Origin: a virus
Virus record (IMG/VR): IMGVR_UViG_3300025889_000581
Location: 1 to 31,255 of that record
Strand: one strand, 5' to 3'
DNA length: 31,255 nucleotides
Under the pieces are notes generated by a model. It was not told the origin of the DNA and did not search any database. It saw only the letters and a program-made list of their open reading frames with translations. Below, in pieces: positions 1,693 through 29,487 of the stretch. The translations under genes and the position numbers were made by a program. The first letter of the stretch is position 1, and each line of letters starts with the position of its first letter.

Positions 1693-4600
1693 ATGGCTTA
1701 TGTATTAAATAACTTAATAAACCAAACCAACGTAAACAACGTAAAAAAATTACTAAGATGTTGGCAACCTGGCGTTAGTAAGTTCACTCCTGGATCTTTC
1801 TATAACTTCGAGCAGGATAACTTACCTCTTTACGACTTAGAAGAGAGAACTTACTTTAACTGGCAGAAGCTTGGTTTCCCATCTGATGTAGGCGCGGCAC
1901 CCATTCACCTACTTGTATCTGCTGATGCTCCTCAAGAGCTAGTAAACTGTAACTCAAATATTTTTCATTCACTACCTGAAGCAATTAACGCCCTCCCCAA
2001 ATATATCAATCAGTTCACTAGAATTTCAGTAGCTTCTTTTGGAGATTTAGGTGAAGTAGACATCGAAGGGTTTAATATGGACCCCAAGAGTGGGGCTTTA
2101 GAGATTGTAAATATAAATTCGTTTGATAGACCTGGGGTTTTTGCTCCTGCCCCAATAGATAATACTAATAAATCCTATTACTACGATGCTAGAGCAACCT
2201 CCATAGCCTCAGATAATAATACCTCACCTTACGGGCTCTATAAAAACTTTGCCTCCGCGCCAAGTAGGTTAGGGCCTGGTCCTGTAGATAATGATGGTTT
2301 CTGTGGAATTTCTAACTTCTTTTTAAGAGCCCCTCATAGCTTAGGCGCTCCACTTGAAATAACTTTCTGTCCCTATGTAGATAATTTTACCGGAGCAGGA
2401 TTCTTATTCTCTACTGTAAATAGCTTCGCTGCTACGAGTATGGAATTAGATGAGAGAGCAAGAGCAGCTTACACGGCATTCATTACCCCCATTCCAGGAA
2501 TTGGAAGTCTTGATGGAATACCTTCAGAGATTAGCAGATTAAGTGTAGGAAGTGTTTCCCTTGTTAACGAGATTATTGACGATTATACTCCTGAAATTGA
2601 AGGACAATTAACATTATTAGAAGAATCGCAGGAGTCTTCCATTATAGATGAAATTTATGTTTATGACCCAAGCTCTTTTGATCAAAGAAATTCAACACAA
2701 AAATTTAGAACAGCACAAAAAAGTTTATTTGATGGACCAAATGAGTTACAAAAAGCTATCAAAACTACTATTTATGGTAACTACATCTCTAGACTAAAAA
2801 TTAGTAACTGTCAGGGTAGATTATTTGTAAGAGGTTTTCATTGCAAAGGTTCTGGAATTAATTCACCAAAGATAGGAATTGAAGTAACAGATACTAATAA
2901 TCTATTTTTAGAATCTATAGCTGTCTCTAGGTATTCTGGTTTTGGTCTTCATTTAATAAACTCTACAGTAAAAATTAGTAGAAGTTTTTACGTATACCGA
3001 TGCTATGGATTTGGTCAAGAAGATTTACCAATTAGAGAAAACTTTAATAAGAGATTGTCAAAACCTTGGTCAGAAAATATTAAATCCCTCCAAGCTCCTG
3101 TCAATGATGACTCAGCAGGAATTGCTGCATACAATAGTGAAATAATATTTGATGGGGCTGATGGTCGTAGTTATGGTATTTACAACGCTTATTTAAATGT
3201 TAGTCCTACTACTCTTTCAGAGATTTTGTATAAGCCAGGTTTAAACGATTGTCGAATGATTTCAAGATGTTCAACTGGGATCAAGTTAGTTAACTCAGTT
3301 ATCTCTGGTGGAAGAGGCAAAAACGCTGAAGCTTACTCAACGACGCAGAGCTTAGAACTACAAGACTTTATCCACATAGAGGGAAATGCCAACTACGGTT
3401 TAGATCTTGAGAATAGTAGAATATCTCTAACGTCAAATCTACAAGTCTTCCACAACACTAGGGGCATTAGAGCAAGAAACTCTACATTAAATCTAGAATC
3501 ATTTAAGATAGACCATAACCATCTCTACGGAATAAGCTTAGAGAATTCTAATTTAATTTATGGATTACAACAAGTTGCTGCTACTCCTTTAGGTAGCTTT
3601 GATTATCAAAATGCTAACCTATTTGACAGTGATAATACTAAACGTAACCAATTTATTCTTCATAGCAATGGTCAACACATCTTAGCTAAAAACTCAGCTA
3701 TCAAGCTAGGATCATATAAAGATCCCAAGATAAGTTACTTTGGTAGGTTTATTTTAGGAGAATCTTTTGGCGTTGATAATAATGGGAATCAACTACCTTC
3801 AGTTTACTTGGAGAATACAAATGCCGACTTTATTCACCTAACATCCTTGAAGTCCGGGGTCGCAGGCACAAAAACGATAGGAGGTCACTTCTACCTTAAC
3901 AATAACTCTGAAGCAACTTTCTTAGGTAGCGCAAGTTCTATAACATGCCTAACTTACCCAGAAGGCACTAACCCAAGCTTCTCAAGAGATCAGAAATTTG
4001 TAGGAGTAGTTGTAAATAACAATTCAACAGCCAGATTCAGAGGGCCTACAGTTGTTTACAATGGTGCCGTTAATATATTAGCTCAAAACAATAGCAACAT
4101 TATCTTCGAGCCTCATAAGAAGACTGATGGAACTTTAGATGTCCTTGGGTTCTCCTTAGACAACGCAGCAAACCATACCATGGTTGAGCTTAAGTCTATT
4201 CGAGCTTGCCTTGTTGCTGATAAGGGCTCGAACATTGTCATGGAAGATTTAGGTTCTTTCACGAAAACTTGGACCGCAAACGAACAGCTTAATAATACTT
4301 ACTTAGCACAAAACGCACCACAAGCCGAATACACATCAGCAGGGTTCTTCCAGTTCTATCCTAACCCAAATACAAATGCAGCTACCTATAACAATCTTCC
4401 ATACTCAACAGCCCTGACTGCACGAGGTAGTGGTTATAGAATGACCGAAATTGGTAGCACTGGTAAGTATTACTGGGGTAGGGATTATACGAATTCAGAT
4501 CCCTTCACCTTATCAGATATAACAAATGGCGGTGTATGTCTTCGAGCATTAAATAATTCAAATGTTAGAGTTCGAAATGTAAACTTCCCCTGTGGATGGT

Positions 4601-7757: not shown

Positions 7758-10316
7758 ATGGCGGACGATAGGATTGATGTTCTGTTTGCCTGCGGTGAGT
7801 TCATCCCAGGCACTAAATCCTTAAAAGATCGTCCAATAAAAACTCCTGGACCTCCTAAGATTATTCCTATCAATAGGAGAGTCATAACAGTTCCTAGATT
7901 ACCTAGAAGAGATGACGATGACTTGCCTGCCCGCAATCCAGGTCCAGGAAGCCCAGGAGGCAGAGGAGGTAGCCCACCAGGACCAGGAGCCGTCCCACCA
8001 GGACCAGGACCGACGACTCCAGGAGGAGTTAACCCAACAACCCCAGGCCCAGGCCCAACAACGCCCGGAGGAAATTTAGGCCCAACAACCCCAGGCCCAG
8101 GCCCAACAACCCCAGGAAATGTAGGCCCAACAACTCCAGGCCCAGGAGATACACCTCCACCAACAAGCACCCCTACAGGCCCAACAACTCCAGGCCCAGG
8201 AGGAGGGGGAGGAGACCCACCAGACGAAGAACCCCCAAGAAGATTTTCTGGGGATCCTACGCTTACTTATGCTCTTCCCATTCCACCTATTGGTTTAGAA
8301 GATGAAGGACGTAGTGGTGGCGGGGGTGGGTCCATAGGAGAACCAATAATTAATACAAGAGCTATTGGTCTTCGTGATGGATCAAACAATAACTCATTGA
8401 ATGGACCTAGCGAAGGTGAGGTTATCGCGTTTGAGCAATCTTTAAGTAATATTCAACAAGGCTCTACAGGGACAGGGAACTTTGCAGGATCTAGATCAAC
8501 CACAAACTACGACTTGAGAGATAACTCAGGCCGCTCAATGTTCTCTAATTCATTTAACAACAACAACCTGTATGACCCAATTTATAATATCTTAGACCAC
8601 AGCAACTCCCCTACAACTTTTGTCTCTAACAACAAATATAGAAATATATTTGGAAACAGAGTAACGACTGAGGTTAATTACTTCCTGAATAGTCTTAACC
8701 TTCAGTATAACTGGGAAGAACGATTCATAACAGGTCTGACAATCGAGAAGCTAACTAGAAGTTTAAATAATATTCTATTAGAAGCTTTTGACACGATAGT
8801 AGACATAAACGGAATACCCGTAACGAGAAATCATTTTCTGTCTAAAGTCTTCGGTCATCTAATCTCAGGAACTCTTGATGAGTTCGATGATACTTTCTAC
8901 ATCAAGTTAGCTGATTCAATTTCAAGTAAAAACTTAACAACTATCACTAACACACGCAACGAACAGACCAAGAAGAATCAAGTCTTATCTTTAATGTCCA
9001 ATAGCTCTTATGCGATCGACTACTCAAGATATACAGATCGACAACAAATTGAACTAGCCAGAATGAGATTTTTATTAACTGATCTTGAGTCTACGTTTGA
9101 TATTGAAACAATCGACGGCACTGAGTATCAACTTGAGTTAGAAGACGCAGGAGTTGAAGTTGAGTATGCTCCTACATTAGGTTTAGTAGAGAATGCAAGT
9201 GTTTCATCAGATTACGTCCCTCCAGGTGAGGGAGATGGGTATTACTACAAGATTGAGACTGAGCTAGGACAACTTCTGCCTCTAGTCTTAGATACTCAAA
9301 TTGATAAAGCTTTTTATATTACTAATGATACTAGAAGACTTGCCTTAAAACTTCTAGATGTAGATTCTAGCTACACGTTTACTACAACAGTAAACTTCAT
9401 TGACTCCGAGTTTTCTTCTGGATTCTCTACCGAGTATACAGCATCTGCTCATTACTTTAAACTAGATCTTAGGACTATTGATAGCACTCCTACACGCGAT
9501 AGCTTCGTAGAGAATATAGTAGCTACCTATGTAAAGCTTACTGATCCTGAGGAGATAGCAGAACATTCCAAAACTTATGGCGCTAAAGTAACTCAATTCA
9601 ATATTCAGTATGATGACCCATTCTTGCAGTATGCTGACAGGTCCGGGGCTGTTACTATTAACATGAATGATGTTACATTCAGGCAGTTTGTTCCAAAGAG
9701 AACTCCGTCTAATAACAGCATTATTACTAGGAACTTACCAGACGGCTTTGTTCTTTACCCAGTCACAGATCTTAAAGATAATCCTACAGGCGGACTATCA
9801 GAGTTTCAAACAGTGGCTGATCAAGTAACGAGAAGATTAGTTGCTGATATAGACTTCACTCTCGATGAGATAGGTTTATCTAGACGTGCTCTAAGAGAAA
9901 CTTTAGTTTGGGATGGAGAGAGTAGCTATAGTTATGGTTTGGTTGGTATTAAAGATACACAAAACGTATATTATGTATACAATCAAGAAGACTTTCCAAA
10001 TACTTTTCAAGTCCAAGAGAGATCACCCGAAGGAAATCTTATCTATAATATATTAGAACAAAAATTAAAGCAAAGATATTCATTCGATTACTTAACTTGG
10101 TGGGATTTATATAGAAGACTATCAGCTAAAGAATTCTCCAAGCTTATTTTTAGTATGCCTAATTTAATAGTAGATAAGCTATATCTGGGCTGGTTGGGAA
10201 CTCAAGCCAAAGATGTTTTATACAGAAACGGACAAGCTCCCGACAATCTTACGGAAGTTAACACAGCGATTGATGACCTTATATACTTAGACGGAAGAGA
10301 TAGAAATAATGTTTAG
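7758..10316 (+). CDS. Virion-associated protein with Pro/Gly/Thr repeat linker, 852 aa
   Basis: ATG at 7758, four bases after the previous stop. Residues 1-55 form a short N-terminal segment containing a Cys and many basic residues. Residues about 60-154 are a low-complexity linker built from GPGPTTPGG and GPTTPG units, which should be extended and flexible. A second Gly/Ser/Asn-rich stretch follows up to about residue 270. The remaining roughly 580 residues look globular, with helical segments and many charged Asp/Glu/Arg residues. The gene sits directly before and overlaps the PAAR-like spike gene by 8 bases, which supports a baseplate or tail-hub connection. Function is not recognised. The repeat makes an artefactual long frame on the opposite strand, which I do not regard as a gene. 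Confidence 0.6.
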   Translation: MADDRIDVLFACGEFIPGTKSLKDRPIKTPGPPKIIPINRRVITVPRLPRRDDDDLPARNPGPGSPGGRGGSPPGPGAVPPGPGPTTPGGVNPTTPGPGPTTPGGNLGPTTPGPGPTTPGNVGPTTPGPGDTPPPTSTPTGPTTPGPGGGGGDPPDEEPPRRFSGDPTLTYALPIPPIGLEDEGRSGGGGGSIGEPIINTRAIGLRDGSNNNSLNGPSEGEVIAFEQSLSNIQQGSTGTGNFAGSRSTTNYDLRDNSGRSMFSNSFNNNNLYDPIYNILDHSNSPTTFVSNNKYRNIFGNRVTTEVNYFLNSLNLQYNWEERFITGLTIEKLTRSLNNILLEAFDTIVDINGIPVTRNHFLSKVFGHLISGTLDEFDDTFYIKLADSISSKNLTTITNTRNEQTKKNQVLSLMSNSSYAIDYSRYTDRQQIELARMRFLLTDLESTFDIETIDGTEYQLELEDAGVEVEYAPTLGLVENASVSSDYVPPGEGDGYYYKIETELGQLLPLVLDTQIDKAFYITNDTRRLALKLLDVDSSYTFTTTVNFIDSEFSSGFSTEYTASAHYFKLDLRTIDSTPTRDSFVENIVATYVKLTDPEEIAEHSKTYGAKVTQFNIQYDDPFLQYADRSGAVTINMNDVTFRQFVPKRTPSNNSIITRNLPDGFVLYPVTDLKDNPTGGLSEFQTVADQVTRRLVADIDFTLDEIGLSRRALRETLVWDGESSYSYGLVGIKDTQNVYYVYNQEDFPNTFQVQERSPEGNLIYNILEQKLKQRYSFDYLTWWDLYRRLSAKEFSKLIFSMPNLIVDKLYLGWLGTQAKDVLYRNGQAPDNLTEVNTAIDDLIYLDGRDRNNV
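7938..8220 (+). repeat. Tandem Pro/Gly/Thr-coding repeat, G-rich on the minus strand
   Basis: Degenerate tandem units of roughly 12-24 bases (core CCAGGCCCAGGCCCAACAAC) encode the linker of the 852-residue protein. One 24-base unit occurs identically at 8033-8056 and 8081-8104. The minus strand has four runs of three or more G separated by 3-5 bases in each of these copies, which is the pattern of a potential G-quadruplex. The block is much more GC-rich than its AT-rich surroundings. Confidence 0.85.
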
Positions 10317-21695: not shown

Positions 21696-24491
21696 ATGAA
21701 ACATTTTTTCGAACTCTTAGACTCATATAATAAGCGCAGATGCTGTGTATCCCCTGTTAATGAAGGAGCAACAAGAGCGCAAAGAGCAGCGGCAGCAGCC
21801 ACGCAGCAACAGAAAATGGCGGATACGGCAGGTCTTATTAATCAAGCAATAAAAACCCCAAACCAAGAATTGGCCGCTCCAGGAGGGACTTGGAAACTAG
21901 TCCCCAAGGTTGATGATAGTAATCAAAAAGTTATTGGATATAGCATATTTACAAGTATAGATGGTAATAAATCATATCCTGTAGACCTAAATGGTAATAT
22001 CCAAGCTACCGGCAGTAGGCTTTCACGTATCCAAAACTTCTTACTAGGGAAAGACGAAGAGAAGAAGACTGATTCGACTCAAAATCAAGGTAAAACCCCT
22101 GGAGAAAGGTTCCCTGAAGTAGATCTAGAAGAAGCAAGAAAAAGAGCCAAAATTGAAGCTGATAACCTAGAGATTAACGAATCTCTAACAGATATTGTTA
22201 GTCAGTATGACGATGAAGCAGTATGTAGAGCTAGACTAAACATTGGAGCTTTACTAGATGTCTTTAGACCAGATAAAGATAGACCTTCTACAAAACCTTC
22301 TAGAGAGTCTGCGGAGACTAAGATCTCAGAAAAGTTAGAGAAAAGAAGACTCTTTATTACTAGGTCTACTGTAACTGCTATACACAGTGTAGTTAGAGAT
22401 AATTATCCTAAACTACAAAATAATGAGCCAGGAGCGGCTTGCGCCTTCCTCTCAGATTTAGAGAAGAAAATTGATGCGACTTTCGTAACAGATGAAGATA
22501 AAGAAGCTTTTAGATCTGTTTTTATTTTTCCTGAAGACTTAAGTCAGCATGTCATTAATCTTACTTCTAATAATCAAAACTCTATAGCAATGTCTATAGA
22601 TTTAGCTAACAATCCAAAGGTAGCTGAAACTATTGAATATATTTTGAAGGGACATTGCCAGAAAGAGGAAGATGATTGTGTTCCACCTGAGAGTTTACCT
22701 GAAGAGCAAATCAATGCTGTAAAAGATAATATGAAAATTGTTTTATCTTTAGCAGCTAAAGATGAATTAAACGACGAAGAAAAGGCACTTCTTCAAAGTT
22801 TAATTATGATAACAGACACAGGTAAGGTTGCTGTCGCAGGAGTGAGTTTCTTAGACAGCATTATTCTGCCAGATAGAGGCAGAGCTTTTGCAGATACATT
22901 GAGGTTTATAGAGAGAAAGCACGGTATAAGTTTTGATATATTAGAATTAGAAGGTAGAATTACGTCAGAAGGAGCACTCAACACTTTAATTGGAACTGCT
23001 TTTGAGCACTGGCATTCTTTAGTAGATTTGCTAAACATGAGATCTAAAACTAAAGACCCAAAGACACAAGAAGCCATAACAAGAGTTGCGACAGTCTATT
23101 ACAATAGGCTAGCTAATCTATGTGAGTCAATGCGAGCAATGAAGCAAAGATTAGGAAATATAAGTAGTAAAGGTCCTGCAATACCAACTGACGAATATGC
23201 TAAAATTGTAGACTTTAACAATGAAGTTGGCGAGGATTGTTCAGAACTTAGCGACATGAACAGAGTAATGTCTAACCACGTATACAAGTCTATCAAAAAC
23301 AGAAATCCTGATCTTATGGTTCAGGTAGGTAAAGAAGTCGGTAAGGGACTGAGAGCAGATATCGTATTAGGCTTTTATGATAGAAAACAAGCTGAGGCTG
23401 CTGCAAAAGCTTCGGGACTCAACCCTAAGAAAGCTGTTAAAAAAACTACAGTAGGGGAGATGTTGGCTAGAAATCCTAAGTATGCTGCGATGCTCATTAA
23501 CTCAGGGATCATAGGTAAGGGCAAAGAGATAGACCCAGATACAGAGATATTTACTTTTGATGAAGGATTAAAAGTTACCTCAGGTAGAGGTTCAAGTGCA
23601 GTTAAGACAGGAACAGCAAGTTTGAACAGTATTCAAGAAGATATTGAGGAAGGCGCATCAAGTCCTTGGGTTAAAAATGTAGGTGAGGCTTTAGGACTCA
23701 AAGGACAAAGCTTAGTCAATGCTGTCGAAGGTGCAAGGAAAATATTTAGGAACCTTGACAAGGTAGATAAGATCTTAGAAAGATCTTTACCTAAAATGAA
23801 TGTTGATGGGACCTTGGAATCTACAGCTAGATTAACAGCCACAGAGATTATGACTAATCTAAGAGATCAAAATATCGAAGGAGTTCTGCTACAGAAAGAT
23901 GAAGTATTTAGAGCCGCTACTGCTTTCGCAAAAGAAGCTAATAGAAAAAATCCAGACCCCAAGGCTCTCGCCTATGCAAGAGAAGAACTTGCAAAAGCTG
24001 TAAAGAAGAGAGTTCTGGAGCAGTATCTAGAAAAAAGATTTAACAGCCTTAAGAAGGACGACAGAGCAGCAGCCGCACTAATAGTTGGAATGGTCGGTGG
24101 AGTTAGAAACGATCAATCTCTACAACATGCAGATTTACTTACAGGAGATCAACATATAGTTGATCATAATACCATAGCTGTAACTCCTTTTATGGAAGCT
24201 ATAAACAATCCTGATAACAAGGTTACTATTAGACGTGCTAGAGATTCGTTCTCTGTGTCAGTAAAATGCGCTAATGGTCCCACTATTACTGTTAGATTTA
24301 CAGGACTTACTGGGGCATCTAGTATTAGTAAAAGTGTTTTTGATAAGGGGTGTGGAGGACCTAGCCCTGCTATCAAACTTGAATCTCACCAGAAAAATCA
24401 ACTCTTAGGAGTGTTAAAATCTCAACTAGAAGTTTTAGCTGAGATTTTTGGGCAAAGTTCCAAACCAAAAAACATCTTTAGTGATACTTAG
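21696..24491 (+). CDS. Large unrecognised protein after the tail tube gene, 931 aa
   Basis: I recognise no family. The frame is open back to a TTG at 21651, but that lies within the terminator stem; the ATG at 21696 is preferred, although its binding site (GGCGGG) is weak. The N-terminus MKHFFELLDSY resembles the short hydrophobic starts of T4-type internal or virion proteins and is followed by an Ala/Gln-rich helix. The bulk is helical and charged, with segments such as LNTLIGTAFEHWHSLVDLLNM near 440 and AALIVGMVGGVRNDQSLQHA near 795. The C-terminal 130 residues look more beta-rich (SFSVSVKCANGPTITVRFTG). No nuclease, ATPase or lysozyme motif is seen. A late promoter upstream points to a virion or packaging role. 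The portal, found here in T4, is not what this looks like. Its last 57 bases overlap the convergent nuclease gene. Confidence 0.7.
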   Translation: MKHFFELLDSYNKRRCCVSPVNEGATRAQRAAAAATQQQKMADTAGLINQAIKTPNQELAAPGGTWKLVPKVDDSNQKVIGYSIFTSIDGNKSYPVDLNGNIQATGSRLSRIQNFLLGKDEEKKTDSTQNQGKTPGERFPEVDLEEARKRAKIEADNLEINESLTDIVSQYDDEAVCRARLNIGALLDVFRPDKDRPSTKPSRESAETKISEKLEKRRLFITRSTVTAIHSVVRDNYPKLQNNEPGAACAFLSDLEKKIDATFVTDEDKEAFRSVFIFPEDLSQHVINLTSNNQNSIAMSIDLANNPKVAETIEYILKGHCQKEEDDCVPPESLPEEQINAVKDNMKIVLSLAAKDELNDEEKALLQSLIMITDTGKVAVAGVSFLDSIILPDRGRAFADTLRFIERKHGISFDILELEGRITSEGALNTLIGTAFEHWHSLVDLLNMRSKTKDPKTQEAITRVATVYYNRLANLCESMRAMKQRLGNISSKGPAIPTDEYAKIVDFNNEVGEDCSELSDMNRVMSNHVYKSIKNRNPDLMVQVGKEVGKGLRADIVLGFYDRKQAEAAAKASGLNPKKAVKKTTVGEMLARNPKYAAMLINSGIIGKGKEIDPDTEIFTFDEGLKVTSGRGSSAVKTGTASLNSIQEDIEEGASSPWVKNVGEALGLKGQSLVNAVEGARKIFRNLDKVDKILERSLPKMNVDGTLESTARLTATEIMTNLRDQNIEGVLLQKDEVFRAATAFAKEANRKNPDPKALAYAREELAKAVKKRVLEQYLEKRFNSLKKDDRAAAALIVGMVGGVRNDQSLQHADLLTGDQHIVDHNTIAVTPFMEAINNPDNKVTIRRARDSFSVSVKCANGPTITVRFTGLTGASSISKSVFDKGCGGPSPAIKLESHQKNQLLGVLKSQLEVLAEIFGQSSKPKNIFSDT

Positions 24492-25013
24492 TAGATCCTC
24501 TAGTTTGTATACAAGTATATTTTTGTATTTTATAGGTTCTATATCTGTATTGTTTAAGTATCCACCTGTAGGTTCATAATCAGCATGAATTACAGCTAGA
24601 ATAGTTCTATTATCCTGTTGCCATACTATAAGAGGCCACTTCGCGGATTTTTTTGCGTCTCTTTCGGCCTGTGCCCAAAATTTCCACAGATCCGAGGTCT
24701 TCTTGAAGAAGTCGTCGATGAAAACCTTGTTGTAACCCTTTTTACATTCGATAGCGAAATCGAATTCTTTTGGTGTGATTAAGTCTCCGTAGATTTGCAA
24801 ATGTTCTGGAAGATTGTGGGTCGTGGCGAACGCACCGCTGCCTGGACTACGCATGAAGTCTGTAGTGCTAAATCTAGCGTTTAAGATCTTGCAAACCTTG
24901 TTCTCAAAATTTACACCCTTCTTACGGGAGTTCACACGCTTCTTCTTACCTCCAGATAACTCTGCTAGATAGTCCTCGGCAGACTCCTCTTTTTTTGATG
25001 GTTTCCTTGGCAT
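24435..25013 (-). CDS. Hjc-like PD-(D/E)XK nuclease (possible Holliday-junction resolvase), 192 aa
   Basis: Archaeal-type resolvase features are visible in order: GVNFENKVCKIL with Glu37, RSPGSGAF (55-62), GDLI with Asp77, and FDFAIECKKG with Glu89 and Lys91. Together they match the E...D...ExK metal-binding core of the PD-(D/E)XK fold and the R-S-x-G-S-G motif of Hjc. It would cut branched DNA made in replication and recombination. It could replace T4 endonuclease VII, but a different structure-specific nuclease role is possible. The reverse-strand ATG at 25013 has GAGGAGG upstream. The N-terminal 30 residues are Lys-rich. Its 3' end overlaps the gene at 21696-24491. Confidence 0.75.
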   Translation of the reverse strand: MPRKPSKKEESAEDYLAELSGGKKKRVNSRKKGVNFENKVCKILNARFSTTDFMRSPGSGAFATTHNLPEHLQIYGDLITPKEFDFAIECKKGYNKVFIDDFFKKTSDLWKFWAQAERDAKKSAKWPLIVWQQDNRTILAVIHADYEPTGGYLNNTDIEPIKYKNILVYKLEDLLSITKDVFWFGTLPKNLS

Positions 25014-25397: not shown

Positions 25398-25813
25398 TGT
25401 TAATCAGAAAAAGCCCTAATTCAGCAGAACTAGTCGAAGTCCCTAATGTCACTTGGGTTACAAGTGATAGTTGGGTTTCTTATTCTGATCTTCTTGAGTG
25501 CGTAAAGAACAACGATCTGAGCAATGCTACGATCTCTCATGCACTCACACAGCATAAGAAGGATGAGAGTAAGTATGGTCTGCTGTTCTTGAATCTATTT
25601 GACGAACCGTGTGAGCGTTTGTTGAATAAGATTCAGACCCATTATCAGAGGAATGAGGATACTTATCCTCTATATATCATTAGCTCTTTCGAATGTCCTG
25701 AACTCTTTGCAACCTTCAATGTTAAGGTTGCTCCGACACTGATTGTGTCGCATACTAAGTTCTTCGTTACGAAAGACTACCTCCCGAGTATCTACTCAGA
25801 ATTAAGGGTCTGA
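25397..25813 (+). CDS. Thioredoxin-fold-like protein lacking CxxC, 138 aa
   Basis: The ATG at 25397 overlaps the upstream TGA and is preferred to the GTG at 25394. From about residue 60 it follows the thioredoxin order: a strand (YGLLFLNLF), then DEPCERLLNKI with Pro71-Cys72 where thioredoxins have CxPC. Next come a strand PLYIISS and FNVKVAPTLIV, with Pro113 at the conserved cis-proline site. The nucleophilic Cys is replaced by Asp, so ordinary disulphide reduction is unlikely. A binding or adaptor role is more plausible. The gene ends 12 bases inside the convergent late-sigma gene. The call is based on pattern only. Confidence 0.5.
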   Translation: MLIRKSPNSAELVEVPNVTWVTSDSWVSYSDLLECVKNNDLSNATISHALTQHKKDESKYGLLFLNLFDEPCERLLNKIQTHYQRNEDTYPLYIISSFECPELFATFNVKVAPTLIVSHTKFFVTKDYLPSIYSELRV

Positions 25814-26170
25814 GTGGGGGGTTGGGTCCAGGTCTCCTAGCTGTTCTCGAACTTTCGCTAGGTAGGCTTGGATCTTTTCTTTTTGTCGCTTCTCTTTACT
25901 ATACATCAGTCTGATATTGTTTAGTATCACCGTTGTAAAGAAGTTGAATGCGGTTCCCTTATCTGGGCTGAAGTTCTTGATCTTCACGAAGATCAGTAGA
26001 AAGCAATCTTGCCTCACGTCATCGAACTCAACTCCCTGAAACTTGAATCCGTCGAAGATATTCTTAATAAGAAGTTCGAAATTCTCAATGAGTTCATCTT
26101 CCCAGGTAGCCGGATGTGCCTTATAACCGGCAATAACCTTTTCGAATCTCTCATTATTTATATACGACAT
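25802..26170 (-). CDS. 55: Late sigma factor (T4 gp55-like), 122 aa
   Basis: gp55 is the small phage sigma that directs host RNA polymerase to TATAAATA late promoters. Residues about 45-100 match a minimal sigma region 2: FDDVRQDCFLLIFVKIKNF, then SPDKGTAFNFFTTVILNNIR, then SKEKRQKEK. These correspond to core-binding and -10 recognition helices. At 122 residues it is shorter than T4 gp55 (185). The C-terminus (LGDLDPTPHSDP) lacks the clear hydrophobic clamp-binding tail of T4 gp55. The reverse-strand ATG at 26170 is preceded by CCTATAATAGGATT. Its 3' end overlaps the thioredoxin-like gene. The late promoter cores before head and tail genes support the call. Confidence 0.75.
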   Translation of the reverse strand: MSYINNERFEKVIAGYKAHPATWEDELIENFELLIKNIFDGFKFQGVEFDDVRQDCFLLIFVKIKNFSPDKGTAFNFFTTVILNNIRLMYSKEKRQKEKIQAYLAKVREQLGDLDPTPHSDP

Positions 26171-26193: not shown

Positions 26194-27231
26194 ATGGCTA
26201 TCTCCGAAATCTGCAATGGTTGTTCCCAACTCAAGAAAAAGAAGCCAATTCACGGCTATCAGGATTATCTCCATGATGGACAACAAGCAGATATTCTAAT
26301 CCTCAACGACTCATTTCGCTGGGGGCAAGGAGGGATCGCACCTGTCGATGGCAGTGAACTTGCACTCCTCTTACGTGCCTACGAGGAGGCAGGCATTCCA
26401 GAAGAGGAATATCTAGCTTTCAGCCACTCTGCCTGCATCAAGTGTCCTTACGTTGGCTCAGATGATATGTCTGCGAACGACATGAAGATCTGTAGAGTGC
26501 ATCTGGAGCACACGATTAAAGTTACAAAACCAAAGCTCATCATCTGCTTTGGTAACTTGTCTTTAAAGATGCTGCTGAAAAAGAGCGGTATCATGACGAA
26601 AAGAGGGAGCCTGTTCGACTATAACGGAGTCCCCGTCATGGCAACTTACAGCCCCATCCAGGTGATCCGAGAGCCCAAGTATGCGGATCTGTTCATCAAA
26701 GATATCTCCAATGCCTACAGAATCTTCAAGGATGGAGCTAGCAGTAAGCAGAAGGACTTCACGATTGTTAAGGAAGTGAAAGCAATCACTGCTCTCACAG
26801 ATCGCTTCAAGGCGATGAAGGCAACAAATGTGCCTGTCGCAGTTGACCTTGAAACTACAGGCTTTGAGTTCAACCGTGATCGTATCCGCACGATGGGGAT
26901 CAGCTTCCGAGACCCACAAACCAAGGAGAAGGAAACCTTTGTTCTTCTCAGCCCAGAAGAGGTGTGCAAGCAAGACTACGATAACCCTTTCATGGAGTTC
27001 GTAGACTACTTCCTAACCTCACCGAAGTTCAAGAAGATCTTCCACAATGCCAAGTTCGACTTGAAGTTCCTCTACCATCTCCTCTATAAGGATAAGAGGA
27101 TTGCTTCAATGCACGCGGTCAACAATGTCGCTTGCACTAAGATCATGGCTAAGTTCGTAGATGAGAACAAGCCAAACAGTCTCTCCGATCTCGTGAAAGA
27201 ATTCTTCGGAGTGGTATTCAATGCTAACTAA
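26194..27231 (+). CDS. Family A DNA polymerase part 1: UDG-like Fe-S domain plus exonuclease motifs I-II, 345 aa
   Basis: Residues 1-180 resemble family 4/5 uracil-DNA glycosylases. Cys7-x2-Cys10 and Cys84-x15-Cys100 match the spacing of the [4Fe-4S] ligands (Cys17, 20, 86, 102 in the Thermus enzyme, from memory). PKLIICFGNLSLKMLL is the typical central strand-helix. The usual catalytic GExPG and the HPS motif are replaced (NDSFRWGQGG; TYSPIQV), so glycosylase activity is doubtful. Residues 212-345 hold the 3'-5' exonuclease start: VAVDLETTGF with Asp218/Glu220 (motif I) and FHNAKFDLKFL with Asp289 (motif II). Motif III is in the next gene. ATG at 26194. Its stop overlaps the next ATG by 11 bases. 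Confidence 0.8.
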   Translation: MAISEICNGCSQLKKKKPIHGYQDYLHDGQQADILILNDSFRWGQGGIAPVDGSELALLLRAYEEAGIPEEEYLAFSHSACIKCPYVGSDDMSANDMKICRVHLEHTIKVTKPKLIICFGNLSLKMLLKKSGIMTKRGSLFDYNGVPVMATYSPIQVIREPKYADLFIKDISNAYRIFKDGASSKQKDFTIVKEVKAITALTDRFKAMKATNVPVAVDLETTGFEFNRDRIRTMGISFRDPQTKEKETFVLLSPEEVCKQDYDNPFMEFVDYFLTSPKFKKIFHNAKFDLKFLYHLLYKDKRIASMHAVNNVACTKIMAKFVDENKPNSLSDLVKEFFGVVFNAN

Positions 27232-27712
27232 AGATGGAAGCAAAACAGACTTCGCAAACATGCCGATTGATGAGGTGGCTGAAGGCAATGCGTTGGATGT
27301 TTTCTACACGCTGGACCTATATTACCTCTTCGAGGAGAGCCTCCCGGAACACTTCCTCAAGTTCCACTCGGAGGTCATTGAACCGCTCAACTCGTATCTG
27401 GCGCTACAGACTTACAACGGCATCACAATCGACACGTCCAAGCTGGAGGAAATGGAGAAGAGCCTTCTTGAGAAGAAGGAAGCGGCTATAGACGAGATTT
27501 ACTCCATTTACCCAGCAGGTAAGAACATTAATAGCTCGAAGGACCTGAGAGAGTTCCTCTATTGCGATGAGCAGATCAATCGCGTGGAAGGTTCCTTCAA
27601 TGTCTATTGGCCCGAAACAACACCCAAAGGTGCTCCTTCCACGAACGCAGATAGCCTGTCGTTCCTACTTACAGCAGTAAAGAAAGAACTAGCAGAGAGG
27701 GGACATGAGTAG
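27221..27712 (+). CDS. Family A DNA polymerase part 2: exonuclease motif III and connector, 163 aa
   Basis: ATG at 27221, within the end of part 1 and with GGAG 9 bases upstream. Residues 14-40 (PIDEVAEGNALDVFYTLDLY) correspond to exonuclease motif III, with Asp26 as the third metal ligand. Next comes EVIEPLNSYLALQTYNGITI, typical of the start of the polymerase thumb ('E.PL...L..ME..Gi.iD'), then a helical connector. It completes the exonuclease started in part 1 and leads to the polymerase in part 3. The frame differs from both neighbours. Start codons and binding sites at both junctions argue for separate peptides that assemble, rather than a sequencing error, though the latter is not excluded. 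Confidence 0.75.
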   Translation: MLTKDGSKTDFANMPIDEVAEGNALDVFYTLDLYYLFEESLPEHFLKFHSEVIEPLNSYLALQTYNGITIDTSKLEEMEKSLLEKKEAAIDEIYSIYPAGKNINSSKDLREFLYCDEQINRVEGSFNVYWPETTPKGAPSTNADSLSFLLTAVKKELAERGHE

Positions 27713-28814
27713 AAAGAACTGGAAGGAGAAGGAGCGGTTAGAGGAGCTTTGTCGCTTCTCCGTCGAGAAGTTGCCCACGTCGGAGTTGCTCCGGCTTGAG
27801 ACCTTTCTCTCTAACCTCCTTGCATACAAGAAGCTCGACAAGCTCGATACGACCTTCGTGAAAGGTCCAAAACGAGTCATCGAGAACTTCGGTCCTAAAG
27901 TCCACTGCGACTTCAACATCGACGGGACGGTCACAGGAAGACTGTCTTGCTCGACCTATTACGGAAACAATCGACGCCCGATGGGTGTATCATTCCACAC
28001 CTTGCCTAACAAGGACAAGAAGCTGGACGTGAACATCCGCAACATTTATAGCGTGGATAAACCAAGTCAGCGGTTTATCACTGCTGACTATTCAACAATG
28101 GAGTTGCGAGTCCTAGCCCACCTTGCTGATGTGCGTGAGATGAAACACGCATTCAACACGGGCTTGGACTTGCACTCTCACACCGCATCCCTGATCTTTG
28201 AGAAGAACATAGAAGATGTGCAATCGGACGAGAGATCACAGGCCAAGACTGCTAACTTCCTTATTGTATATGGTGGTGGAGCCTCAAACCTTTCAGAAGT
28301 TGTTGGCATTACCATCAAGCGGGCGCAACATGTTATCGACCGTCACAAGGAAGTCTATCATGAGGTTCACCGACTCATGGCAGAGACTGAAGAAAAGGTT
28401 CGACACTTCAAGTATGTCGAAAATCCTTTTGGTCGTAGACGGCATCTTCCTGACATTGATAGTCCTGATGGTGGTATGCAGCATCGAGTTCTGCGTCAGG
28501 CGTTTAATATGATCATCCAGAGCACAGCCTCAGACATCCTGCTGTGCGCTGACGCCTCGCTCATGAACGAGATCAAGTATCGCAAGTATGAGGACAAGGT
28601 CCGCATTGCAGCCAACGTCCATGACTCCATGGAAGTTATCTGTGACGAGGAGATCGCCGAGACTGTCTGCCATATGGTAATCAATGCCATGAAGAACAAC
28701 CCTGTAGCCAAGAAGCTGATTGGGGAGTTTTCTGTGCCTTTCGAGGTAGAGTTAGAAGTAGGTAATACGTTCGGGGATGGTATCCCCATGGAGGAATATT
28801 TTGACCAAGATTGA
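27705..28814 (+). CDS. polA: Family A DNA polymerase part 3: polymerase domain, 369 aa
   Basis: This part copies the phage genome. Motifs are TGRLSC (77-82), motif A TADYSTMELRVLAH with Asp128, and motif B from Arg177 and Lys181 through Phe185 to Tyr189 (AKTANFLIVYGGG). IIQSTASDILL (270-280) follows, then motif C VHDSMEV with Asp307. Both catalytic Asp are present. Position 308 is Ser where most family members have Glu. The residue equivalent to E. coli Phe762 is Phe (Phe185). ATG at 27705 with GAGAGGGG 3 bases upstream, overlapping part 2 by 8 bases. ThyX follows with overlap, so the genes form one operon. Finding family A here is unusual, since most T4-type phages use a family B enzyme. Confidence 0.92.
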   Translation: MSRKNWKEKERLEELCRFSVEKLPTSELLRLETFLSNLLAYKKLDKLDTTFVKGPKRVIENFGPKVHCDFNIDGTVTGRLSCSTYYGNNRRPMGVSFHTLPNKDKKLDVNIRNIYSVDKPSQRFITADYSTMELRVLAHLADVREMKHAFNTGLDLHSHTASLIFEKNIEDVQSDERSQAKTANFLIVYGGGASNLSEVVGITIKRAQHVIDRHKEVYHEVHRLMAETEEKVRHFKYVENPFGRRRHLPDIDSPDGGMQHRVLRQAFNMIIQSTASDILLCADASLMNEIKYRKYEDKVRIAANVHDSMEVICDEEIAETVCHMVINAMKNNPVAKKLIGEFSVPFEVELEVGNTFGDGIPMEEYFDQD

Positions 28815-29487
28815 AGTAGAGCTTCAGGATACGATGGGTAGCGATAGAGCAATCGCAGAAGCTGCCTGGACATCCTCGAAGGATAATGAAAATCGCCTAG
28901 ACCGCCCAGAGAAAGATGTAGCTCGGGTGGTCAACATGCTTGCGGACTATAAACACTCAGTCCCATTCGAGAGCGTGATCTTCCGCTTCTGGATCAGGAT
29001 GCCTATTGCTATTGACAGGCAGCTCATGACCCACAGGATCGCTTCTCACAGCGGTATGAGCGGAAGGTATAGAACCATGCCCTCCGACTTCTACGATGTC
29101 CCACAGGACGTTTTCGACATCCTGGTGAACGTTCCTGACGGTTCCAAGAGAATTGAGGAATACAAGAGCCTCTGTGTAGCCACAAATGTGTGGTATCAAG
29201 AAGCCATCACTAAGTTGAGGACTGATCGGGACAATGGAATGATTGATGGTGTTGAGTTCAAGAGAGTTCGTGAATTCTTCCGAGGAGTCTTACCTCAGCA
29301 TAATATGACAGAGCGAGTGACAATTATGAATCTTCGCTCTTGGGCTAATTTCTACAAATTAAGATCTAAGCTCGATGCACAGCCTGAGATTCAGGAAGTC
29401 GCCAATCAGATGCGTGCAGAAGTGATCAAATCTGGTGTCTGCCCTATCGCCTTAGAAGCATTAGAGCGGAACGACTGGTCTATATAA
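28801..29487 (+). CDS. thyX: Flavin-dependent thymidylate synthase ThyX, 228 aa
   Basis: ThyX makes dTMP from dUMP using FAD, NADPH and methylenetetrahydrofolate, feeding phage DNA synthesis. The signature is at residues 77-90, MTHRIASHSGMSGRY (usually RHRxxSxNxxSxRY; the first Arg is Thr here). Upstream is HSVPFESVIFRFWIRMPI, and near the end NLRSWANFYKLRSK with Arg179/Arg188, the substrate-binding region. The start chosen is the TTG at 28801 with GGAGG 6 bases upstream, overlapping the polymerase by 14 bases. An ATG at 28777 is in frame but has no binding site. The length is normal for the family. Confidence 0.92.
   Translation: MTKIEVELQDTMGSDRAIAEAAWTSSKDNENRLDRPEKDVARVVNMLADYKHSVPFESVIFRFWIRMPIAIDRQLMTHRIASHSGMSGRYRTMPSDFYDVPQDVFDILVNVPDGSKRIEEYKSLCVATNVWYQEAITKLRTDRDNGMIDGVEFKRVREFFRGVLPQHNMTERVTIMNLRSWANFYKLRSKLDAQPEIQEVANQMRAEVIKSGVCPIALEALERNDWSI

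Follow-up and report, generated by a model that had tools for sequence, protein, structure and literature searches.

The window analyzed here, a 31,255-base viral contig from IMG/VR, encodes a family A DNA polymerase that very probably functions as three separately translated polypeptides assembling into a replicative enzyme; assembly and activity are inferred, and there are no biochemical data. Comparison of related loci shows the genes to be separate and conserved and to descend from a single-chain ancestor, broken once in the exonuclease, at a cut that the clade shares, and once within a thumb insertion. One exonuclease site is thereby predicted to need two peptides, which follows from the sequence together with a joined-chain model, their association being inferred. 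The window also carries genes for a T4-type head maturation protease, major head protein, tail sheath and tail tube, with a major capsid protein about 34% identical to cyanophage gp23, and the phages that host the split polymerase are a large group of uncultured T4-like phages.

The polymerase is spread over three overlapping ORFs in three different frames (Table 1), and the arrangement described in the original prediction was recovered at the same coordinates, with overlaps of 11 nt (ORF1/ORF2) and 8 nt (ORF2/ORF3) and a +1 step at each junction. Family A polymerases usually carry exonuclease, thumb and palm colinearly in one polypeptide, a usual rather than a defining trait; this single-chain colinearity is unmet here, with three ORFs in every clade member except one (L036, which has two). 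The family A polymerase here has the domain order UDG-exonuclease-thumb-palm, with cut 1 falling between exonuclease motifs II and III and cut 2 within the thumb. ORF1 matches PF03167 (UDG) and PF01612 (DNA_pol_A_exo1), the latter over profile positions 4-132 of 173, while ORF2 matches the start of PF00476 (DNA_pol_A) and ORF3 the rest of that profile (E=3.4e-73). The three products also match PHROG 17 colinearly (ORF1 544-786, ORF2 797-912, ORF3 931-1234), and ORF2 matches Klenow residues ~482-617. Alignment to single-chain relatives places cut 1 at Klenow residues about 470-480, near F473, and cut 2 at about 618-625 in the same numbering. Pol I of phage G20c has an insertion in the same region near F473 as cut 1 (PMC9629493).

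Table 1. Features of the split polymerase locus and its downstream neighbor in the window
Feature	Positions	Strand	Description
ORF1, 345 aa	26194..27231	+	Fe-S type UDG-like domain at the N-terminus, followed by a 3'-5' exonuclease limited to motifs I and II
ORF2, 163 aa	27221..27712	+	Exonuclease motif III (GNALD) and first part of the thumb
ORF3, 369 aa	27705..28814	+	Remaining thumb, palm and fingers; motifs A, B and C intact
Junction 1	27207..27231	+	GGAG SD-like site, ORF2 ATG at 27221, ORF1 stop TAA at 27229-27231
Junction 2	27693..27712	+	GAGAGGGG SD-like site, ORF3 ATG at 27705, ORF2 stop TAG at 27710-27712
thyX	28801..29487	+	PF02511; downstream neighbor, context, outside the polymerase

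The three-way split is real and no sequencing error, as judged from close relatives. Metagenome assemblies often contain frameshift errors, which can imitate split genes, but such an origin is virtually impossible for this locus: two relatives (L002 and L003) contain both junctions and a third (L007) contains junction 1 before its contig ends, and the overlaps are identical to those of the window although these independently assembled contigs show extensive synonymous divergence (80-95% identity), the split being kept clade-wide. A close relative with one continuous frame would have refuted the split, and none was found, every close relative being split identically. Every ORF is under purifying selection by the measure of dN/dS (0.02-0.17 per ORF, for each pair with an estimable dS), and a pseudogene reading of the locus was considered and rejected. 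Both SD-like sites claimed for the junctions proved real, with anti-SD energies of -6.2 (junction 1) and -7.0 kcal/mol (junction 2), values that about 8% and 3%, respectively, of the window's remaining ATGs reach. Synonymous change is nearly absent from the opening 12 codons of ORF2 (1/33 across three relatives). The earlier interpretation of the junctions as genuine coupled starts rather than random frameshifts is thus supported, since all close relatives are split alike and cut 1 is clade-wide.

The extent of the split clade was defined in two scans. A diverse palm alignment retrieved L024-L036, at 35-44% identity; the second scan, specific to the clade, confirmed 509 relatives, the best 80 of which were kept. 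HMMs built from the three parts yielded a table of 84 loci after removal of known duplicates; these still contain near-identical contigs, and once six junction-2-only loci are added there are 74 distinct palm sequences. Every member is represented by a metagenomic or single-cell contig whose completeness is unknown. Cut 1 is present in 84/84 tabulated loci, and cut 2 is absent only in L036. Single-chain relatives fall outside the split clade: in the maximum-likelihood tree, one fully supported branch (SH-aLRT 100) parts the 74 split palms from 45 single-chain palms, with L036 and the window together with L002 branching early on the split side. Because the palm tree is rooted at its midpoint, a single origin of the split rests on the single chain being ancestral, as it is in all outgroups. 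No clade member was found among 50,697 annotated phages, nor did ORF2 as a separate protein have a match in annotated phage records; almost all of the member contigs derive from environmental virus data. The genome collection yielded a single member, a 130,604-bp contig of the Prochlorococcus single-cell assembly AG-409-P03, a host lead and no proof of host. L151 alone has a shortened ORF2, of 92 aa, which may reflect a frameshift or sequence error in that contig.

The junctions themselves vary widely across the clade. At junction 1, the window group has the 11-nt overlap; four loci overlap by 7 nt, 42 by a single base (TAATG/TGATG-like), and three are abutting or separated by 3 nt (TAAATG and TAAgacATG among them), while ORF1 and ORF2 are 185-2404 nt apart in 33/84 loci. 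All three relative frames of ORF1 and ORF2 occur, in classes of 55, 15 and 14 of 84. Genes inserted between them code for GT2 glycosyltransferases and a 91-aa membrane-like protein, and opposite-strand ORFs are frequent among the inserts. One of these is a conserved lipoprotein-like gene (CSTIKHAIGGAVGGG...; L117:4952-5575 (-), also L120, L123, L133, L165 and others), which lies between ORF1 and ORF2 in several contigs; the L117 copy had no Pfam or PHROG match. At junction 2, L031 (at 2921-3475) and L032 have a gene for a dNMP kinase (phrog_139, E=2e-25) placed exactly between ORF2 and ORF3. The ORF2 N-terminus nevertheless remains MLT(I/V/K) across the clade, apart from five loci that have MLG; three loci use GTG as the start codon. 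SD sites are good for ORF3 starts and for insert-free ORF2 starts, and poor at many ORF2 starts that follow an insert.

These patterns bear on whether the pieces could be rejoined during expression. Two programmed +1 ribosomal frameshifts at the stops (AAC-U-AAA and GAG-U-AGA) could give a full-length chain, at least in the window's subclade: both shifts in the window are +1, the sequence runs smoothly through each stop, and the junction-1 DNA is nearly invariant among close relatives. Such recoding is very unlikely, given the opposite-strand inserted genes, gaps and three frames found in relatives with the same ORF2 N-terminus, the whole gene inside junction 2 of L031 and L032, the inferred poor re-pairing of the P-site codons after a +1 slip, and the conserved ATG and good SD, which account for the DNA conservation. 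A conserved relative frame with a slip site, the mark of programmed frameshifting, is not met across the clade; the +1 step noted for each junction holds in the window, but the relative frame is not conserved in relatives. Clade-common translational recoding is impossible because of the three frames, gaps and inserted genes at the junctions. Rejoining by a group I intron or a split intein has still less to recommend it and can be set aside almost entirely. Phage polymerase genes are known to carry introns (PMC10580990), but no Rfam intron was detected in the window or six relatives, the window has no intervening sequence, and ORF1 ends at its own stop and ORF2 begins at an ATG, with or without an insert and with no intein-like extensions. 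On this comparative evidence, the junctions are boundaries of separate genes, not FRAMESHIFTING; for the window itself, separate translation is inferred by homology and from its own ATG and SD sites.

Motif positions agree with the predicted placement of exonuclease motifs I and II in ORF1, motif III in ORF2 and the palm in ORF3. ORF1 contains Exo I VDLETTG (D218/E220) and Exo II HNAKFD (D289), ORF2 contains Exo III GNALD (D26, with G22 at the tyrosine position), and ORF3 contains motifs A (DYSTMELR), B (RSQAKTANFLIVYG) and C (VHDS). The family A palm signature (motif A Asp, motif B R-K-F-Y, motif C His-Asp) is met: all tested polymerase residues, from the R668 to the D882 equivalents, are invariant in 74/74 sequences, among them the equivalents of D705, E710, R754, K758, F762, Y766, Q849, H881 and D882. 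The ORF1 alignment residues are Cys 7/10/84/100, D218, E220, N285 and D289. In the UDG-like domain (window 26194-26700), which has a profile match to PDB 4zbx, C7, C10, C84 and C100 are invariant and satisfy the requirement for an Fe-S site. The UDG catalytic motifs GEAPG and HPxx are not met, the window having ILNDSF and YSPI; at the second of these motifs, HP is retained in other clade members.

In the exonuclease, the four DEDD carboxylates are invariant in the split clade wherever aligned, fulfilling the requirement for metal binding. The ExoIII tyrosine (YxxxD) that defines DEDDy enzymes is not met in the split clade: it is Gly in 72/72 split members and Tyr in 55/55 alignable single-chain relatives, a substitution that the original prediction had missed. 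In the Klenow, T4, phi29 and HSV polymerases, even a Tyr-to-Phe change at ExoIII is reported to lower exonuclease activity significantly (PMC10133059), so proofreading by the split enzyme is probably altered; with Gly in every member, it is probably weakened or changed in chemistry. The invariant carboxylates suggest, by inference, that the site still binds metal and probably retains some nuclease activity, which argues against plain loss. The missing tyrosine nevertheless leaves room for an exonuclease that is weak or off.

A decaying or accessory polymerase, in which ORF3 alone polymerises, the ORF1/ORF2 exonuclease is dead and ORF1 is kept, for example, for uracil sensing by its UDG-like domain, is unlikely. 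The clade-wide absence of the ExoIII tyrosine would fit it, as would the report of an exonuclease-dead phage PolA, divPolA1 (PMC11348598). It is countered by the invariance of the four carboxylates, by strong purifying selection on every ORF, and by the composition of ORF2, which is no known domain by itself, just half an exonuclease plus thumb. Nor was another replicative polymerase seen: contigs from seven relatives (68-131 kb) each have a single PolA palm and a single DNA_pol_A_exo1 match, with no PolB, PolC or further PolA. This suggests that the split enzyme is probably replicative, with the caveat that contig completeness is unknown.

Structural modeling is consistent with a single fold distributed over several chains. 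An AlphaFold model of the L026 ORF1-ORF2 joined chain (stop read as Q) is confident, with a mean pLDDT of 85 and values of 94-98 in the exonuclease core, about 95 in the ExoIII helix and about 70-75 in the loop at the cut. Structural matches that extend across the cut, to RNase D (Z 21.3), NrnC (21.1) and Klenow (21.0), show that it has the RNase D/Pol I exonuclease fold. In a model of L036 with its single stop read through (957 aa, mean pLDDT 79, pTM 0.78), cut 1 maps to a loop modeled with low confidence (pLDDT about 51-67), and the site corresponding to cut 2 is in the turn between two long thumb helices, 541-559 and 568-608. Both cuts are thus placed in loops, which can tolerate a chain break. 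The sequences are therefore modeled as compatible with one fold; fused models force proximity, and binding of the free chains is not demonstrated by them. The thumb linker measures about 72 residues in split members (in two pieces), 62 in L036 and about 34 in most single-chain relatives. The extra thumb residues may dock subunits, but the proposal that they evolved as docking arms after cut 2 was abandoned in that form, since some of the insertion is already present in L036, which lacks this cut.

In the preferred reading of a three-subunit enzyme, subunit A would supply the UDG-like domain and exonuclease motifs I/II, subunit B motif III and the first part of the thumb, and subunit C the remaining thumb, palm and fingers. 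These products would join non-covalently as the replicative polymerase of the phage, an inferred step, and the overlapping starts in the window may, through translational coupling, yield stoichiometric subunits (also inferred). The 3'-5' exonuclease site would be completed across subunits, with the equivalents of D355, E357 and D424 coming from A and that of D501 from B. The inferred evolutionary path leads from a single chain to cut 1, accompanied by the Tyr-to-Gly change and a longer thumb linker, and then to cut 2 inside that linker and gene insertions between the parts; L036 as a re-fusion of ORF2 and ORF3 is an alternative that is not excluded. A more tentative, possible but doubtful extension is a detachable proofreading function, in which the site, with its Tyr-less ExoIII, exists only when ORF1 is docked on the ORF2/ORF3 core and fidelity is tunable by subunit exchange.

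Split phage polymerases are known, and the present variant is apparently unreported: no report of a polymerase cut through its proofreading site was found in the open-licence literature. Gene 43 of Aeromonas phages 25 and 44RR (43A/43B) likewise encodes a replicative polymerase as separate polypeptides, and the two phage 25 proteins purify together and show polymerase activity (PMC2988022). Unlike the three-part family A enzyme described here, with its cut through the exonuclease domain, 43A/43B is a family B polymerase in two parts whose split is tied to a homing endonuclease or intercistronic sequence. The marine Methylophilales phages MEP401 and MEP402 also split a family A polymerase between two genes, gp13 and gp15 (PMC10580990), but they belong to a Zobellviridae lineage outside this clade, keep the exonuclease whole with YLKQD in gp13, and are cut before motif A with a 77-aa ORF between. 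SPO1-type polymerases (phi18, LysYB1; L010, L039), among the nearest single-chain relatives (palm about 31%), share the domain order and differ in having an uncut chain, the ExoIII tyrosine and a linker of the shorter, 34-residue type. The comparison with Rhodothermus phage RM378 (T4-like) made in the original prediction holds insofar as the exonuclease is separately encoded (gp24), and is otherwise loose: gp24 is stand-alone, has all three exonuclease motifs in one chain, including motif III (YNAVD), and reads as family B-like. Phage Aeh1 offers a split essential enzyme that reassembles and is active, NrdA (PMC2988022), but this is a ribonucleotide reductase, split by mobE.

The variant is notable because two gene products would form one active site with a changed ExoIII signature. 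Proofreading sites are usually taken as single-chain, whereas here a two-gene site is kept, and the ExoIII tyrosine lost, across a large phage clade. The series from single chain through one cut (L036) and two cuts to inserted genes constitutes a natural experiment in the passage from a single-chain to a multi-subunit enzyme, and the cuts are ready-made split points for family A polymerase engineering. Annotation pipelines that discard short fragments miss or misname genes for such polymerase parts.

Several other features of the window were recorded. Downstream, the listed start of thyX is ATG 28777, and TTG 28801, used in Table 1, is likelier, as it follows GGAGGAA and L002 has ATG there; from this start, thyX overlaps the end of ORF3 by 14 nt. 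An 85-aa ORF at 27234-27491, present in all close relatives, was rejected as a gene and is read as a third-frame shadow of ORF2 because its sequence changes much faster than that of ORF2 (an inference). Among the structural genes, an 852-aa ORF (7758-10316) contains a long Pro/Gly/Thr-rich repeat (PTTPGPGP...). A putative PDDEXK_15 endonuclease (24435-25013 (-), PF24608, E=9e-25) lies between the tail and replication genes, with similar ORFs in L003 and L007. Divergent from the polymerase, a sigma-70 region 2-like ORF (25802-26170 (-), PF04542, 24.8 bits, just over the cut-off) is conserved in L003 and L007 and is possibly a phage late sigma factor.
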